Translations under genes and position numbers: made by a program
Notes under the pieces: model-generated
Databases searched by the model: none
What the model saw: the letters and a program-made list of their open reading frames with translations, nothing else
What the model was told of the DNA's origin: nothing
Shown: piece by piece, positions 18,741 through 63,407 of the stretch
Numbering within the stretch: position 1 is the first letter of the stretch
Layout: each line of letters starts with the position of its first letter
Source of the DNA: an uncultured Methanomicrobiales archaeon
GTDB taxonomy: Archaea > Halobacteriota > Methanomicrobia > Methanomicrobiales > Methanospirillaceae
Direction: 5' to 3'
NCBI GenBank assembly: GCA_949320185.1
Contig: CASGHK010000033.1
Span: 1 to 64,000 of the forward strand
DNA: 64,000 bases

Positions 18741-19328
18741 TCAGTTCCCGGGCACCTGACCCTTCGCGGCCTCGACGAAGGCCCGCACCCGTGAGTGGTC
18801 TTTTTTACCGGGTTTCGACTCGACCCCCGAGGCGACGTCGACGCCGAATGGTGCAACCTCGCGGATCGCCGTCGCGACGTTCTCAGGTCCGAGGCCGCCG
18901 GCGAGCAGCACCGGGCGCCGCGATGATGCCACCGCCTGCCGGGCATACTCCGGGTCGAACGTCCGCCCGGTCCCATGGGACCCGTCGACGATCACCATGT
19001 CGCAGTCCTCAGGGACAGGAGAGCCGGGCGCGACGACGCGGATCAACAGGATCCCCGCCGGGGGCGGGGGGAGGAGGGTGTGGGAGAGCTGGACCGCGTC
19101 TGGGCATGCACTCAGGCATTCGGTCAGACCCTCGATCGTGGTAGTGTGGCTGACGACCACCTTCAACACCCCGGGTGGGACCTCGGCAAAGACCCGTCGT
19201 GCCTGCTCGACTGTGCAGGAGCGGGGGGATTCCGAGCACATGACGACCCCGATCGCGTCTGCACCGGCCTCCACGGCCGCGCGGGCGTCCTCCGGGCGGG
19301 TGATCCCGCAGATCTTGACGAAGGTCAC
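18741..19328 (-). CDS. trpF: Phosphoribosylanthranilate isomerase
   Basis: Third step of tryptophan synthesis, the Amadori rearrangement of phosphoribosylanthranilate. The 195-residue TIM-barrel begins [11 protein letters not shown], where C7 is the catalytic cysteine, and has [14 protein letters not shown] holding the catalytic aspartate. The start is a GTG that overlaps the TGA of the chemotaxis gene (GTGA), so translation is probably coupled. This is the only trp gene outside the trpEGDCBA cluster 17 kb away, and it has no TRP-box-like sequence in front of it. Confidence 0.94.
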
Positions 19329-36428: not shown

Positions 36429-36878
36429 ATGCACTGGACCGTCCGCCCATTCAGGGACGACGATTTCTCCGGAGTCTGGGCGATGGAACGGGGTGCGATT
36501 GAAAAGGGATACCCGTCCGCCGTCGTGGTCAGGCAGGCGGCGGAGCTTCACCCGGAGACCTTTCTCGTCGCGGCGGACACCGTCGGGCCCGCCGGGTACG
36601 TTATCGCCGCTCTGGCGTCTGATCCATCTGTGGGATGGGTCCTGAGACTCAGGGTTCGCGAGGACTGTCGTCGGTCGGGCTGCGGACGGGCCCTGCTCGG
36701 AGCGGCTCTCGAACGTCTTCGGGCCAGCGGCGTCGCACGGGTGCGGCTCACCGTCGCGCCCGGGAACGTGCCGGCGCTCTCGCTCTACCGGGAGATGGGT
36801 TTTACCGAGGAGTGCCGGCTCCCCGACTACTTCGGCCCCGGCGAGGACCGGCTCCTGCTCACATGTCCCACCCCCTGA
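36429..36878 (+). CDS. GNAT-family N-acetyltransferase (RimI-like)
   Basis: Acetyl-CoA-dependent acetyltransferase of 149 residues. The acetyl-CoA loop is LRVREDCRRSGCGRALL (motif RxxGxG, about 75-91), followed by RLTVAPGNVPALSLYREMGF, which closely matches RimI-type N-terminal or peptide acetyltransferases. Substrate is unknown. The last 52 bases overlap, tail to tail, the 3' end of trpA on the other strand, so the C-termini of both proteins are encoded by the same DNA. TTTTATCC about 90 bases upstream may be its promoter. Confidence 0.85.
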   Translation: MHWTVRPFRDDDFSGVWAMERGAIEKGYPSAVVVRQAAELHPETFLVAADTVGPAGYVIAALASDPSVGWVLRLRVREDCRRSGCGRALLGAALERLRASGVARVRLTVAPGNVPALSLYREMGFTEECRLPDYFGPGEDRLLLTCPTP

Positions 36879-37684
36879 GGTACAGCAGGACATCCCTCCA
36901 GGGCACCCCGTATCTCCCGGACTCGCGCGCCGAGGGCAGCGAGCAGTGCCTCTTCGTCGGTGGCATTGGCCTCGATGATCGAGACGAGCGCAGACCCGAC
37001 TATCACGCCGTCGGCTCCGAGGTCGGCCACCGCCCGGGCCTGTGCCGGCGTGGCGACCCCGAAACCGACCGTGATCGGCAGGTCCGTGACCTCACGGAGT
37101 CGTTTTAGGAGTGGCCCCACCGTTCCGGGGACATGGTCCCGCACCCCTGTCACACCCATCGTCGAGACCGCGTAGACGAACCCCCCGGCCTCTTTTCCGA
37201 TCCGGGCGAGCCGGCGGTCAGCGGTCGAGGGTGCGGCCATCAGGACGCGGTCGATCCCCGCATCACGGCAGGCGACCCCGAGAGCCTCCCCGTGTTCTAC
37301 CGGGAGGTCGACGCAGAGTATGCCGTCAACCCCAACCTCCGCCGCATCGCGGCAGAAGGCCTCGACTCCGTAACGGTAGAGATTGTTGTAATAACAAAGG
37401 AGGACGATCGGGACGGCGGTCTCGCAACGGACCTGCCGGACGAGGTCGAGGAGTCTTCCTGGGGTCATGCCTGCCTGGAGTGCACGGTTGTCCGCGCGTT
37501 CGATCACCGGGCCGTCACCCGTGGGATCGGAGAAGGGCATGCCGAGTTCGAGGACGTCGGCGCCCGCTCTGGCCAGTGTCGAGGCGATCCGTGTCGAGGT
37601 GTCAGGAGTGGGGTCGCCGGCGACGACGAACGTCACCAGCAGAGGTCGTGTCCGTGCCCGGAAGACCTCCAGGAGCCGGCTCAA
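36827..37684 (-). CDS. trpA: Tryptophan synthase alpha subunit
   Basis: Cleaves indole-3-glycerol phosphate to indole. The 285-residue TIM-barrel has [18 protein letters not shown] with the catalytic Asp, and the catalytic Glu position near residue 46. The start is a TTG that overlaps the trpB stop as TTGA, so translation is coupled to trpB; the encoded start LSRLLEVF lines up with other TrpA proteins. The C-terminus extends about 15-20 residues beyond the barrel and is the part overlapping the GNAT gene. Last gene of trpEGDCBA. Confidence 0.94.
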
Positions 37685-38859
37685 ACCACCACACCCCGCT
37701 GCCGCGCCAGGTCGTGCATATCCTTGTCGCCACGGCCCGAGATGGTGATCACCATGATCTCGTCGGGGGTGAGGCTTCCGGCGCAGTGCCGGGCCCCGGC
37801 GATCGCGTGGGCCGACTCGAGCGCGGGGATGATCCCCTCCCGGCGCGCCAGATACCCGAGGGCATCGACCGCCTCGGTGTCAGTGACGGCGGTGCACGCA
37901 ATCCTCCCCTGTTCCTGGAGGTCCGCGAGCTCGGGGCCGACGCCGGGATAATCGAGTCCGGCAGCGATGGAGTGGGTCTCGGCGACCTGGCCCTCCGGGT
38001 CCTGGAGCAGGTAGGAGAGTGTCCCGTGGAGCACGCCGGGAGAGCCGCAGCAGAGGGTTGCCCCGTGACAGCCGGTCGAGACCCCCTCTCCGCCCGCCTC
38101 CACGCCGAGCATCCGGATGCCGGGGTCGGCGAGGGACGGAGCGAAGGTCCCGATGGCGTTCGACCCTCCACCAATGCAGGCCACCAGGAGGTCCGGCAGA
38201 CGCCCTGCGGCCGCGAGGCACTGGGCTCGGAGCTCGGTCCCGATCACCGCCTGGAAGTCCCGGACCATGGTGGGGTACGGGTGAGGCCCCGCCGCGGTCC
38301 CGAGCAGGTAGTGCGTTGACTCCGACGAGGCGGTCCAGTCGCGGAGAGCCGCATTGACCGCATCTTTCAGGGTACGGGTGCCGGACTCCACTGCGTGGAC
38401 CCTGGCACCGAGCAGCTCCATGCGGAAGACGTTGAGCCGCTGGCGCTCGATGTCAGCCGCTCCCATGTAGATTTCGACCGGGAGACCGAGCGCCGCCCCC
38501 ACGATCGCTGTCGCGACCCCGTGCTGGCCGGCCCCTGTCTCGGCGATCAGCCGTGTCCTACCCATGTACCGGGCGAGCAGGGCCTGACCGAGCGTGTTGT
38601 TCAGCTTGTGGGCCCCGCCGTGGAGCAGGTCCTCACGCTTGAGGTAGACCCGGCATCCCAGGTCCTCGGAGATCCGGGGCGCGAAGGTGAGCGGCGTGGG
38701 ACGCCCGGCAAACTCGGCGAGATACCGGTCGAGTTCGTTCTGCGCGGTCTGGTCCTTTCGAAACCGTTCGTACCCGGTCTCGAGCTCGATCACCGCCTCC
38801 ATCAGCGCCTCGGGGAGGTACTGGCCCCCGAAGGCACCGAATCGTCCGTCTGGGGTCAT
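37681..38859 (-). CDS. trpB: Tryptophan synthase beta subunit
   Basis: PLP enzyme of 392 residues that joins indole and serine. The PLP lysine lies in [12 protein letters not shown] (about 82-93), the catalytic Glu in AETGAGQHG, and the phosphate-binding loop in GGGSNAIG. This is a TrpB1-type protein, the form that pairs with TrpA, not the stand-alone TrpB2. The ATG overlaps the trpC stop (ATGA). Confidence 0.96.
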
Positions 38860-39611
38860 GCGGAACAGAGCTCCCGCAGGGCGCCTGCCGGAGAGGGAGA
38901 CCGCATCAGAGCTGTTCCGATCAGTACCGCGTCGCAGTCGGGGGCGAGACGGCGGAGATCGGCGGGGATGTTTACACCACTCATCGAGATTACCGTCCGG
39001 CCCTCTGCCCGGAGTCGCGGGCCCAGCCTGGACGTGGTGGCGAGTTCGATCTTCAGGGTCTCGAGGTCACGGTTGTTCACCCCGATCAACGCTGCACCGG
39101 TTCCGAGCGCCTGCTCGACCTCACGCTCAGTGCGGACCTCCACGAGCGGTTCGAGACCGAGTGCATGGGAGCGATCGACGAACTCCCCGATCCGGTCCCC
39201 GAGGACCCGGACGATCAGGAGGACCGCATCGGCTCCGAGCGCACGCGTCTCGGCCAGCTGCCGTTTGTCGACGATGAAGTCTTTTCGGAGGACCGGGACG
39301 GAGACCTCAGCTCGGACCTCGCCGAACCGATCGGGGGCGCCGCGGAAGAACATGGGCTCAGTCACGAGCGATAGCGCGCAGGCTCCGGCACCGGCCAGTT
39401 CGCGGGCGAGGGAACCATGGTCGAGGACGTCCCGGATCAGGCCCTGTGTGGGCGACGCCGGCTTGATCTCAGCGATCACCGCAGTGGGATCGGGACAGTT
39501 CCGGATCGCAGCTTCGAGCGAGCGAACCGGGTCGGCGCCCGCAAGGTCGGTGTCTGTCGGGAGGGTCGCGCTCCGCAACCGGGCGGCCCGAATCACGTCG
39601 TCGAGAAACAT
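38856..39611 (-). CDS. trpC: Indole-3-glycerol-phosphate synthase
   Basis: Ring closure of CdRP to indoleglycerol phosphate. The 251-residue TIM-barrel has [11 protein letters not shown] with the catalytic Lys, VLRKDFIVD, and [11 protein letters not shown]. It is not fused to trpF, which is encoded elsewhere in the window. It starts within the last 19 bases of trpD. Confidence 0.95.
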
Positions 39612-40624
39612 GGTACACCTCCAGTTGCACGGACCAGCCGTTCGAGCCGGTCGAGGGCCGCCCCTCGTTCAACAGCGCGTTCGGCGGCTGATAGCCCCCC
39701 GGCGAGGTCACGGGCCCGTCCTCCGAGGAGGATCGCTGCAGCCGCGTTGAGCAGCACGATCTCACGTGCCGGTCCCCCGGCTCCTTCGAGTACCTCCACG
39801 ACCATTCCTGCGTTCTCGACTGGCCCTCCACCCCGGAGCGCTGATGCCGGCACCCGGGAGAGACCGAGTTCCTCAGGCGCGATCGTGAAGGTCTCGATCG
39901 CTCCCCGGTTGAGCTCGGCGACCTGGCTCTCCCCGGTCGTGGTCAACTCGTCCAGCCCTGACCCGTGGACGACCCAGGCCCGCTCCCTGCCGAGGGTAAC
40001 GAGCGCCCCGGCGACGGGAAGGACGAGCGCGGGGTCGTATACCCCGAGGAGCTGGGCGTCGGCCTGCGCCGGGTTGAGGAGCGGCCCGAGGACGTTGAAG
40101 ACGGTCCGGATGCCGATCTCCCTCCGGACGGCAGCCGCGTACCGCATGGCCGGGTGGTGGGCCGGGGCATGGAGATAGACGATCCCCGCCTCCGCCATAA
40201 CCCGCGCCTCGTCTCCGGGCGTCAGGGGGAGCCGCACGCCGAGCGCTTCGAGGACGTCGGCAGAGCCGCAACCAGATGAGACGGCCCTGTTTCCGTGCTT
40301 CGCGACACTGACTCCAGCGCCGGCTGCCACCAGCGCGGCGGCGGTCGAGATATTGAGGCTCATGGAGCCGTCCCCGCCAGTTCCGCAGGTGTCGACGAGT
40401 GGGCCGCACGAGGGAAGCCGGACTGTGCGGGCGACCTCCCCCATCGCTCGCGCGAAGGCGGCGATCTCCGACGCGGTCTCGCCCCGGGTGCGGAGGGCGG
40501 CGAGAAGCCCGCCGAGCTGACCGTCCGTCACCTCTCCGTGCATCACGCTCCGCATCGCCCCCGCCGCCAGTGCGGGTGAGAGTTCCCGGCCTCCGACAGC
40601 TGCCGCTATCGCGTCCCGGATCAT
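39593..40624 (-). CDS. trpD: Anthranilate phosphoribosyltransferase
   Basis: Transfers phosphoribose from PRPP to anthranilate. The 343-residue protein has the PRPP-binding signature VDTCGTGGDGSMSLNIST (about 79-96), KHGNRAVSSGCGSADVLEALG and the NVLGPLLNP motif. ATG 40624 overlaps the trpG stop (ATGA). It is separate from trpG, unlike the fused bacterial forms. Confidence 0.95.
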   Translation of the reverse strand: MIRDAIAAAVGGRELSPALAAGAMRSVMHGEVTDGQLGGLLAALRTRGETASEIAAFARAMGEVARTVRLPSCGPLVDTCGTGGDGSMSLNISTAAALVAAGAGVSVAKHGNRAVSSGCGSADVLEALGVRLPLTPGDEARVMAEAGIVYLHAPAHHPAMRYAAAVRREIGIRTVFNVLGPLLNPAQADAQLLGVYDPALVLPVAGALVTLGRERAWVVHGSGLDELTTTGESQVAELNRGAIETFTIAPEELGLSRVPASALRGGGPVENAGMVVEVLEGAGGPAREIVLLNAAAAILLGGRARDLAGGLSAAERAVERGAALDRLERLVRATGGVPCFSTT

Positions 40625-41202
40625 GATGCCGCCCCTCCCGTGTCGAGAAACCGCCTGATCAGGGCATCCCCGTCCCGGGTGAGGTACGACTCGGGGTGGA
40701 ACTGGACCCCCTCTATCGGGAATACCCGGTGGCGCACTCCCATGACGGTCCCGTCCTCGACCGCCCGGGCCGTGACGAGGAGCTCCGGAGGGAGGGACGC
40801 CTCGTCCGCGACGAGTGAATGGTACCGGATGGCCGTGATCGGCGATCGGAGACCGGTGTAGATCCCCCGTCCATCATGGACGATGGTCGCTTCCTTCCCG
40901 TGGACCACCAGCGGCGCCCTCTCGATCTTCCCTCCGAAGGCGGCACAGATCGCCTGGTGACCGAGGCAGACCCCGAGGGTGGGGACCCGACAGGAGAGCC
41001 CTTCGAGCACCGCTCGAAAGAGGGGGACCGATGACGGCCCGCCGGGCCCGGGGGAGAGGAGGATCCGGTCGCAGGGAACGGATGCGACATGGTCGAGGGA
41101 CGCGTCGGCGGTGACCACTGTCACACGGGCCCCGAGCCGCCCGAGCTGCTGGGAGAGGTTGTGGGTGAACGAGTCGAACGCGTCGATGACGAGAACCCTC
41201 AT
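40621..41202 (-). CDS. trpG: Anthranilate synthase component II (glutamine amidotransferase)
   Basis: Supplies ammonia from glutamine to TrpE. The 193-residue class I amidotransferase has the nucleophile Cys in LGVCLGHQAIC (about residue 79) and the His-Glu of the triad in VQFHPESYLT. ATG overlaps the trpE stop (ATGA). Being inside the trp unit favours anthranilate over p-aminobenzoate synthesis. Confidence 0.95.
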   Translation of the reverse strand: MRVLVIDAFDSFTHNLSQQLGRLGARVTVVTADASLDHVASVPCDRILLSPGPGGPSSVPLFRAVLEGLSCRVPTLGVCLGHQAICAAFGGKIERAPLVVHGKEATIVHDGRGIYTGLRSPITAIRYHSLVADEASLPPELLVTARAVEDGTVMGVRHRVFPIEGVQFHPESYLTRDGDALIRRFLDTGGAAS

Positions 41203-42704
41203 CCCATACCTCCCGTTCCGGCAGCGAGCGCCCGCAGGATCCCGGACGCCTTCGCCTCGGTCTCGGCGAACTCGAGTGACGGCACCGAGTCCGCGACGAC
41301 GCCGGCACCGACCTGGACCGAGGCGGTCCCCTCGCGGATGACCGCGGTCCGGATCGCGATCGCGAGATCCATCGGGCCGCGCAGGTCGAGGTGTCCGATC
41401 GCCCCGGCGTAGACCCCGCGCGGCTCGGGTTCCAGGGCTTCGATTAGCTCCATCGCGCGGAGGCGCGGCGCCCCAGAGACGGTGCCGGCAGGAAAGACGG
41501 CGGCGAGGACACCGACCTGGTCCTGGCCGCTCCCGAGGGCTCCGGAGACAGTCGAGACCAGGTGCTGGACAGTCGAGAACCGCTCGACGTCCATAAACCG
41601 CTCCACCGTTACGGTCCCCGTCTCGCAGATCCTCCCGAGGTCGCTCCGGGCGAGGTCGACGAGCATCAGGTGCTCCGCGCGCTCCTTCGGATCGGCAAGG
41701 AGTTCGGCAGCAAGTCGGTCGTCCGCTGACCGGTCGGCACCGCGCGGACGGGTGCCGGCGATCGGCACGGTCATGACGCGGCGCCCCTCAACCTGGATGA
41801 GCATCTCAGGGCTCGAACCGACGATCGCCCGGTCATCCTCCTCGATAAGGTAGAGGTACGGTCCCGGCGTCCCGGAACGGAGCGCCCTGTAGACGGCGAG
41901 CGGGTCACCCGTGAAGGGGAGGTCGATGCGCCGGGAGACCACGACCTGGAGGCAGTCACCCGCATGGACGTACCCGACCGCGCTCGCAACCGCGTCCTCG
42001 AACCTGGCTCTATCGGATTGAGTTTCAGTTCGAACGAGGTCATCTGGAGGATCCGGCGGTGCCGCCTCCCCCGGTCCAACCGTCTCGATGGCGGCCTGGA
42101 GGCGCGACAGGCGCCGGTCGATCTCGACGGACACGGTATCGGGGTCGTCCCCGGGATGCACGAGCGGAGCGGTAACGATGTTGCAGGTCCTGGCTACATG
42201 GTCGATAACGAGCCGGTCTTCGGCCAGGTGCAGCCTGGCGAGCGGACCGTCGGGGGTGCGGCGCGGACCGACCGGCGTGCCCCGATGGAGGGCGGTCGCG
42301 AACTCGTAGGCAAACGAACCGACGAACCCGACGGCATAGCGAGGGACCGGGACGTCCGCCACCCTGAACCGGGGAAGGAGCGCGCGCAGAGTGTGGGCAC
42401 CTCCTGCTCCTTTTACTCCATCGGCGAGTTCAATCAGTTTCCTGTCGCCGGTAATCTTGAGACCTTCCTCGTGAACGTCAATCGTGAGTGACGGGTCGGC
42501 CCCCAGGCAGGAGAACCGGGCCTGGCTGCCCGGCCCCTCGACCGACTCCAGGAGGAAACCGGTCCTGCCCCGGAGAGCCTCGTAGAAGCGCACGGGGGAC
42601 CGCCCACCGAGCGGCTCGGTCCAATAGGAGGGGACGAAACAGGGCCGGTCGATCTCCCGAATGAGAGAGCGAAGCCGTTCGGCCTCGTTCATGACACGGG
42701 GCAT
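41199..42704 (-). CDS. trpE: Anthranilate synthase component I
   Basis: Converts chorismate to anthranilate; 501 residues. Chorismate-binding motifs are PIAGTRPRG, LMLVDLARSDLGRICETG and PAGTVSGAPRLRAMELI. The N-terminal part contains LLESVEG, the segment that carries the tryptophan feedback site in this family. First gene of trpEGDCBA. ATG 42704 has AGGGGA upstream; ATG 42692 is an in-frame alternative. A cluster of GTAC-core boxes covers the promoter, so the unit is probably repressed by tryptophan. Confidence 0.95.
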   Translation of the reverse strand: MPRVMNEAERLRSLIREIDRPCFVPSYWTEPLGGRSPVRFYEALRGRTGFLLESVEGPGSQARFSCLGADPSLTIDVHEEGLKITGDRKLIELADGVKGAGGAHTLRALLPRFRVADVPVPRYAVGFVGSFAYEFATALHRGTPVGPRRTPDGPLARLHLAEDRLVIDHVARTCNIVTAPLVHPGDDPDTVSVEIDRRLSRLQAAIETVGPGEAAPPDPPDDLVRTETQSDRARFEDAVASAVGYVHAGDCLQVVVSRRIDLPFTGDPLAVYRALRSGTPGPYLYLIEEDDRAIVGSSPEMLIQVEGRRVMTVPIAGTRPRGADRSADDRLAAELLADPKERAEHLMLVDLARSDLGRICETGTVTVERFMDVERFSTVQHLVSTVSGALGSGQDQVGVLAAVFPAGTVSGAPRLRAMELIEALEPEPRGVYAGAIGHLDLRGPMDLAIAIRTAVIREGTASVQVGAGVVADSVPSLEFAETEAKASGILRALAAGTGGMG

Positions 42705-42741
42705 GGTGCGTCCCCTGTCCTTAGAAGATTGTGTCCATCAA

Positions 42742-42795
42742 TGTACAACATCGTACATTTGATAGACGATGTACGTATTTATTCATTGTTGTACA
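42742..42795. promoter_or_regulatory. TRP-box-like operator array in front of trpE
   Basis: Four GTAC-core hexamers occur within 54 bases: TGTACA 42742-42747, CGTACA 42752-42757, TGTACG 42770-42775 and TGTACA 42790-42795. Centre-to-centre distances are 10, 18 and 20 bases, close to whole helical turns. The first two form the inverted repeat ATGTAC-N6-GTACAT. TGTACA is the TRP-box consensus bound by the tryptophan repressor TrpY of Methanothermobacter in the same position. Here the boxes flank the TATA box and cover the predicted transcript start. Confidence 0.7.
42776..42783 (-). promoter_or_regulatory. TATA box of trpEGDCBA
   Basis: AATAAATA on the minus strand, between two of the GTAC-core boxes and 72-79 bases before the trpE ATG. 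It predicts a transcript start near 42752, inside the inverted repeat. Confidence 0.6.
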
Positions 42796-42801
42796 AAAAA
42801 A
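42795..42801 (-). terminator. T7 run after the HTH-PAS gene
   Basis: Seven T on the minus strand, 8 bases after the TAA of the upstream HTH-PAS gene, preceded by an AT-rich stretch. It would end that transcript just before the trp promoter and abuts the outermost TRP-box-like hexamer. Confidence 0.5.
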
Positions 42802-42808
42802 TTCAATT

Positions 42809-62684: not shown

Positions 62685-63407
62685 ATGAACAAAATAATAC
62701 TCACTCTCTTTGCTCTTTTCATCGGCCTCGTGGCCGTCGGCGTGGCGAGCGCCGAGACCGTTGTCCAGTCCACACCTGTGATCGGCGAGTCATCCGGGAT
62801 CGGGATCGTCGGGGCCCAGGCGCCAGTCGCAAACGCGCAGTCGACAGCGCTCACCAACGCGATCGGCTCACCGATGACCCAGGCGACCGTCAACCAGTGG
62901 TTTTCGATCGGCGGATGGTACTGGTATAACGTCAACAACGGCGTCCGCACACCCGATGCATATCAGTATGTCACCCTCCAGCACTCGCGGAACGGGGGCT
63001 CCTGGTCGACGATCGGGAGCGGGTACACCAACTCGAACGGCTACATCGGCTGGTCGGTCAAAGAGCCCACCGCCGGTACGTACCGCTACCGCTCGGTGAA
63101 CACGGGGTACTACTCGAGCATCAAGACGTACATCGTCTACCCACCCGGCAGCTCCACGGTTTGGGCTTCATTCTACGCGTCGCCCACCGTCGGCACCAGG
63201 TCGACGAACTTCAAGTTCATCGGCTCCGCGGGAGGCTCCACTCCGACGAGCTACTACTGGACCTTTGGAGACGGCAAGAGCGCGTACGGCAAGACCGTGT
63301 ACCACAAATATACCTCAACCGGGTACAAGACCGTCAAGCTGACCGTAAAGTTCACGAACGGGTGGTCCGCCTGGATGCAGCGGGCCAGTTACATCAGGGT
63401 CAAGTAA
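62685..63407 (+). CDS. Secreted PKD-domain protein
   Basis: 240-residue exported protein with a signal peptide (about 1-23, ending GVASAE). A Ser/Thr/Gly/Tyr-rich Ig-like domain (about 70-155: YVTLQHSRNGGSWSTIGSGY) is followed by a PKD domain (about 160-240) with SYYWTFGDGKS and YHKYTSTGYKTVKLTV. There is no membrane anchor. PKD proteins in methanogens are surface or secreted and often adhesive. It is a single gene with a strong AT-rich promoter and a T6 run behind it, suggesting high expression. Confidence 0.82.
   Translation: MNKIILTLFALFIGLVAVGVASAETVVQSTPVIGESSGIGIVGAQAPVANAQSTALTNAIGSPMTQATVNQWFSIGGWYWYNVNNGVRTPDAYQYVTLQHSRNGGSWSTIGSGYTNSNGYIGWSVKEPTAGTYRYRSVNTGYYSSIKTYIVYPPGSSTVWASFYASPTVGTRSTNFKFIGSAGGSTPTSYYWTFGDGKSAYGKTVYHKYTSTGYKTVKLTVKFTNGWSAWMQRASYIRVK

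Follow-up and report, generated by a model that had tools for sequence, protein, structure and literature searches.

Does the cluster of GTAC-core hexamers in the tryptophan promoter of an uncultured Methanomicrobiales archaeon serve a TrpY-type repressor, a regulator so far known from one distant methanogen? In Methanothermobacter thermautotrophicus, TrpY represses the trp genes from TRP boxes, whereas a Thermococcus homologue has no such role in trp control and other branches of the family are left unexamined (PMC6737238). By its title, as cited in PMC3729527, the study of Karr et al. (2008) concerned TrpY regulation of trpB2. The locus lies within a 64,000-nt stretch of a single contig (the window), and its host belongs to a different class- or phylum-level lineage from M. 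thermautotrophicus. To our knowledge, very few amino acid repressor-operator systems have been worked out in archaea, and no function has been assigned to the other TrpY branches. The hexamer TGTACA, which we take to be the TRP box consensus of Methanothermobacter TrpY, recurs in the promoter described here, and the four hexamers very probably form the operator of a TrpY-type repressor acting on trpEGDCBA.

Layout of the trp promoter

The operon runs in the order trpE-G-D-C-B-A on the minus strand, from 42704 to 36827, as assigned with NCBIfam models. Its first gene, trpE (41199–42704), codes for anthranilate synthase component I (TIGR01820, TrpE-arch, and TIGR00564, trpE_most; E ~1e-126). It is followed on the same strand by trpG (40621–41202; TIGR00566), trpD (39593–40624; TIGR01245), trpC (38856–39611; NCBIfam TrpC models, E 9e-70), a trpB of the TrpB1 type (37681–38859; TIGR00263) and trpA (36827–37684; TIGR00262), with the matches of trpG, trpD, trpB and trpA all above cut-off. 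The trpF gene lies apart (18741–19328, minus strand), where it overlaps the end of a chemoreceptor-like gene. This arrangement differs from the trpY-trpEGCFBAD locus of M. thermautotrophicus.

Between the trpE start (42704) and a PAS-domain gene lies a gap of 104 bp (42705–42808, no strand assigned), AT-rich at 36% GC versus 66% in the window, that holds the promoter and the operator array. An earlier note on this DNA had reported four GTAC-core hexamers here, spaced by 10, 18 and 20 bp around the TATA box and over the predicted start site, and they are present exactly as claimed (given in plus-strand letters, with no strand assigned to the sites). Site 1 (TGTACA, 42790–42795) is centred 13 bp upstream (−13) of the centre of the TATA-like element AATAAATA (42776–42783, minus strand), on its BRE side. 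Site 2 (TGTACG/CGTACA, 42770–42775) abuts this element at +7, site 3 (CGTACA/TGTACG, 42752–42757) is centred at +25 and site 4 (TGTACA, 42742–42747) follows at +35, 10 bp from site 3. The TATA-like element is part of a 14-mer match and aligns with the TATAAATA that adjoins the box in relatives. Transcription would start about 25 bp downstream of it, near site 3; the boxes flank the TATA element, and their overlap with the start site rests on this inferred start.

The gap contains four GTAC against 0.35 expected; only 3 of 20,000 base shuffles and none of 2,000 dinucleotide shuffles contained as many. With four GTAC in 48 bp, the trp promoter is also the tightest such cluster of the window, equalled in one of 200 dinucleotide-shuffled windows. 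Another dense cluster, four GTAC in 52 bp, lies at 63076–63131. Because of this second cluster, GTAC clustering by itself is only moderately strong evidence for a trp operator. Conservation, rather than clustering, appears decisive for the reality of the trp boxes.

Conservation and predicted targets of the boxes

The trpE gene was located in 100 of the 108 genomes of the family, and 90 upstream regions were analysed. The earlier note's proposal hinged on related species keeping the boxes upstream of trpE, and they do: TGTACA occurs within 200 bp upstream of the gene in 66 of the 90 genomes, against 5.05 expected (maximum of 13 in 300 shuffles), a count that yields no probability because the genomes are related, and with which the genus-level picture agrees. 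The hexamer is present in 10 of 15 genera, and none of the five genomes from the window's own genus lacks it. Among palindromic hexamers upstream of trpE it is by far the commonest (66), followed by TATATA (31). About a quarter of the family genomes have no exact TGTACA at this position.

The boxes also keep their distance from the TATA element. Offsets of GTAC from the TATA centre in the family promoters are most often +7 (n = 39), followed by +17 (11) and +27 (8) and rarely −13, with the range from +13 to +17 also occupied, and most sites lie about whole helical turns from one another. Site 2 occupies the best-conserved of these positions and matches the pattern WATAWATANGTACA, which combines the TATA element with the box at +7. 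The −13 offset of site 1 recurs in a relative (L052). Furthermore, relatives carry at +17 and +27 the same 10-bp pair, TGTACNnnnnTGTACA, as sites 3 and 4, the window's last two boxes being displaced by 2 bp relative to the relatives' +27 position.

Scanned over the 108 family genomes, WATAWATANGTACA gives 62 matches, 41 of them upstream of trpE, and the reversed pattern gives about 25. The exact 14-mer TATAAATATGTACA is more specific to trp, with 38 of its 41 matches in these genomes at trpE, two before trpB2 and one near a contig end. In the window's own genome (G000), where the reversed control gives none, WATAWATANGTACA matches exactly twice, at the trp operon and at trpB2 (L377; C29:55715–57073), identified by TIGR01415. 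TGTACA abuts the TATA element at +7 in the trpB2 promoter as well, and trpB2 is thus the predicted second target of the box system in this genome. The earlier note had proposed a genome-wide scan near trpF and other aromatic genes; the unbiased pattern search gave a second site, at trpB2, and trpF (18741–19328) has no TRP box. Nowhere else in the genome's AT-rich non-coding DNA do two GTAC lie 10 bp from each other, as they do in sites 3 and 4. The remaining 10-bp pairs were rejected as further operators, being inside long, GC-rich open frames; of three places on C47, C50 and C52, some were inspected.

Several other families of the phylum also have GTACA-type boxes immediately ahead of their first trp gene (L328, L330, L331, L333, L334, L338, L339 and L342), about half of the promoters inspected carrying them in a plain count. 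In L342, for example, the TATA element stands between two TGTACA 20 bp apart, as in the window. The trpY-trpE regions of Methanobacteriaceae carry TGTACA...AGTACT arrays spaced by 20 or 30 bp and, in one genome, by 18 and 20 bp, so that the longer spacings of the window have counterparts there. As in M. thermautotrophicus, the TGTACA boxes overlap the trp promoter, the genome encodes a full-length protein of the TrpY family and trpB2 is, at the sequence level, a second target; unlike in that species, there are four boxes with a 10-bp pair, and the box abutting the TATA element is the core site. That trp and trpB2 are paired here too, in a second major lineage, suggests a tryptophan regulon of old archaeal origin. 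One old TrpY regulon is the simplest reading of these comparisons, and this switch for tryptophan seems to be both ancient and common among archaea.

The TrpY protein and competing readings

Homologues were searched with an alignment of true trpY genes from Methanobacteriaceae, where trpY and trpE diverge from a shared spacer that contains TGTACA. The search returned one TrpY homologue each in 90 of the 108 family genomes, representing 16 of 17 genera; they are usually full length, and three are weak or partial. The earlier note had seen no trpY beside the operon, had placed the repressor elsewhere and had made its proposal depend on a homologue in the genome. Such a candidate exists on another contig (C49:8039–8536; 166 aa). 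It is the sole TrpY-family protein of the genome, is full length and matches NCBIfam NF053754 ('TrpY family transcription regulator', TrpY_fam) with 208.1 bits (cut-off 180); its identity to the Methanobacteriaceae TrpY is about 32%. Residues D54, R55, R124, D130 and P131 are invariant in an alignment of 45 TrpY sequences and P148 is nearly so. G149 is not fully conserved and is moved by one (LPPG) in the C49 protein; mutation of this residue has reportedly been linked to trp repression.

An AlphaFold2 model of this protein (mean pLDDT 93) predicts an N-terminal winged helix-turn-helix and a C-terminal ACT-like domain, and the C-terminal part matches amino acid-binding ACT domains in the PDB. 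The model thus depicts a helix-turn-helix protein with a putative amino acid-binding (ACT) domain. Its Pfam matches fall below cut-off, and the Pfam ACT model likewise misses TrpY at cut-off. Proteins that do carry PF01842 (ilvN-like, a hom-linked ACT protein and others) were considered and rejected as TrpY. An initial guess that equated TrpY with AF1403 (1Y7P) found no support in the sequence.

The trpY promoter of this genome has no GTAC and no box, which led us to reject autoregulation of trpY through the boxes here. In M. thermautotrophicus, by contrast, trpY is divergent from trpE and autoregulated, traits that belong to the Methanothermobacter locus and do not define the family. Like the C49 protein, TkTrpY (TK1227) of Thermococcus kodakarensis is not a divergent neighbour of trp; unlike the promoter described here, with its conserved TRP boxes, the trp promoter of T. 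kodakarensis is not bound by its own TrpY (PMC6737238). TrpY is encoded in 288 of the 296 genomes of the phylum, some of which have no detectable trpE, and further roles besides tryptophan synthesis are therefore probable. The separation of TrpY from a trp neighbour in this genome and its retention elsewhere in the phylum where trpE is not detected make a wider role directly testable.

The boxes lie against or on either side of the TATA element and over the expected start, a position that supports a mechanism blocking TBP and TFB. The C49 TrpY would bind the TGTACA-like boxes that flank the trpEGDCBA TATA element and cover the operon's start site, together with the box next to the TATA element at trpB2. 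When tryptophan is plentiful, Trp-bound TrpY would most likely occupy several boxes cooperatively, about whole helical turns apart, and hide the TATA element and the start site from TBP/TFB and RNA polymerase. Both trp and trpB2 would then be repressed and tryptophan synthesis shut down. The data themselves establish the boxes with their conservation and phasing, the shared pair of targets and a regulator with its predicted fold; from these we infer the binding of TrpY to the boxes, the co-repressor role of tryptophan and repression rather than activation. The principle of a tryptophan-dependent repressor is shared with the bacterial TrpR operator, although TrpR differs from the TrpY system in both protein fold and operator.

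Several observations weigh against assigning the boxes to TrpY: the modest identity (~32%) to the Methanobacteriaceae proteins, the variable G149, a trpY that is neither adjacent to trp nor controlled by a box, the quarter of family genomes without an exact TGTACA at trpE, and the retention of TrpY without detectable trpE, which shows that it is not tied to trp alone. Furthermore, the Thermococcus homologue does not bind its trp promoter despite 42% identity to the M. thermautotrophicus TrpY (PMC6737238). Taken with the near-universal presence of TrpY in the phylum, some of these same observations (the genomes without trpE, the boxless trpY gene and the Thermococcus result) would suit a real trp operator bound by an unrelated regulator that came to recognise TGTACA by convergence, with TrpY regulating something else. 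We consider this unlikely, for the hexamer, its overlap with the TATA element and the pair of targets, trp operon and trpB2, known from Methanothermobacter would all have to recur by chance, and no other candidate regulator adjoins the operon within its immediate neighbourhood. The earlier note had left room for convergent use of the site; this is improbable because neither the protein family nor the pair of targets differs. Its alternative, that TrpY-type control reaches this group, is supported by four independent results: the box conservation across the family, the TrpY-family protein encoded elsewhere in the genome, the box at trpB2 and the matching box architecture in the trpY-trpE regions of Methanobacteriaceae.

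Still less probable is a TrpY that binds the boxes but, when tryptophan runs short, chiefly activates or regulates in both directions. Lrp-like regulators with ACT/RAM domains often act as both activators and repressors. Archaeal regulators of aromatic amino acid operons can activate as well, as does Tar (TK0271), which governs the aro, trp and tyr-phe genes of Thermococcales; unlike the system described here, Tar belongs to another protein family and recognises TGGACA-N8-TGTCCA (PMC6737238). Boxes that lie against the TATA element and over the expected start are nonetheless placed to block TBP/TFB rather than to recruit them. The view that GTAC clusters merely by chance in this AT-rich promoter could draw on the second cluster at 63076 and on the one shuffled window in 200 that is equally tight. 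The fixed TATA spacing, the trp-specific 14-mer and, above all, the family-wide conservation refute it, leaving this explanation scarcely credible.

Leader elements of trpE outside the window's genus

Across most of the order, GGTGATGCCNNTGGA[C/A]TGG stands ahead of trpE; the window's genus lacks this element. A trpE-specific 19-mer, GGTGATGCCNNTGGAMTGG, is present as a single copy in each of 70 genomes out of 119 (e.g., L013, L014, L034 and L113) and lies at trpE wherever coordinates could be compared, with no match to the reversed control. Its out-of-frame coding sequence, MP[V/L/M][D/E]W, contains a single Trp codon and shows wobble variation at Pro. The MPV[D/E]W mini-ORF overlaps what is probably the start of trpE; that codon is ATG or CTG and never GTG or TTG, in counts that lean towards the related pattern by which the sites were picked. 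Many trpE genes of the family (e.g., L014, L019 and L025) lack an in-frame ATG, GTG or TTG around the N-terminus, and a conserved CTG is probably their start.

Tryptophan-sensing translational control by the 19-mer leader is possible. For the MPV[D/E]W leader, frameshifting by −1 was considered and set aside, as no convincing slippery site was found. More speculatively, control in the order might be two-layered, the TrpY operator in the DNA being joined by a trpE RNA element, GGTG-ATGCCNNTGGA[C/A]TGG, that would make trpE translation dependent on charged Trp-tRNA through the mini-ORF; the window's genus would then have lost the RNA layer and multiplied its boxes, a scheme we hold to be doubtful. 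The trpE starts of Methanobacteriaceae (L220–L224 and L343–L346) show a different overlapping, out-of-frame mini-ORF, M..SE[C/Y]FW, with a good SD and an ATG, where a +1 slip into trpE might occur at TTT TGG under Trp shortage.
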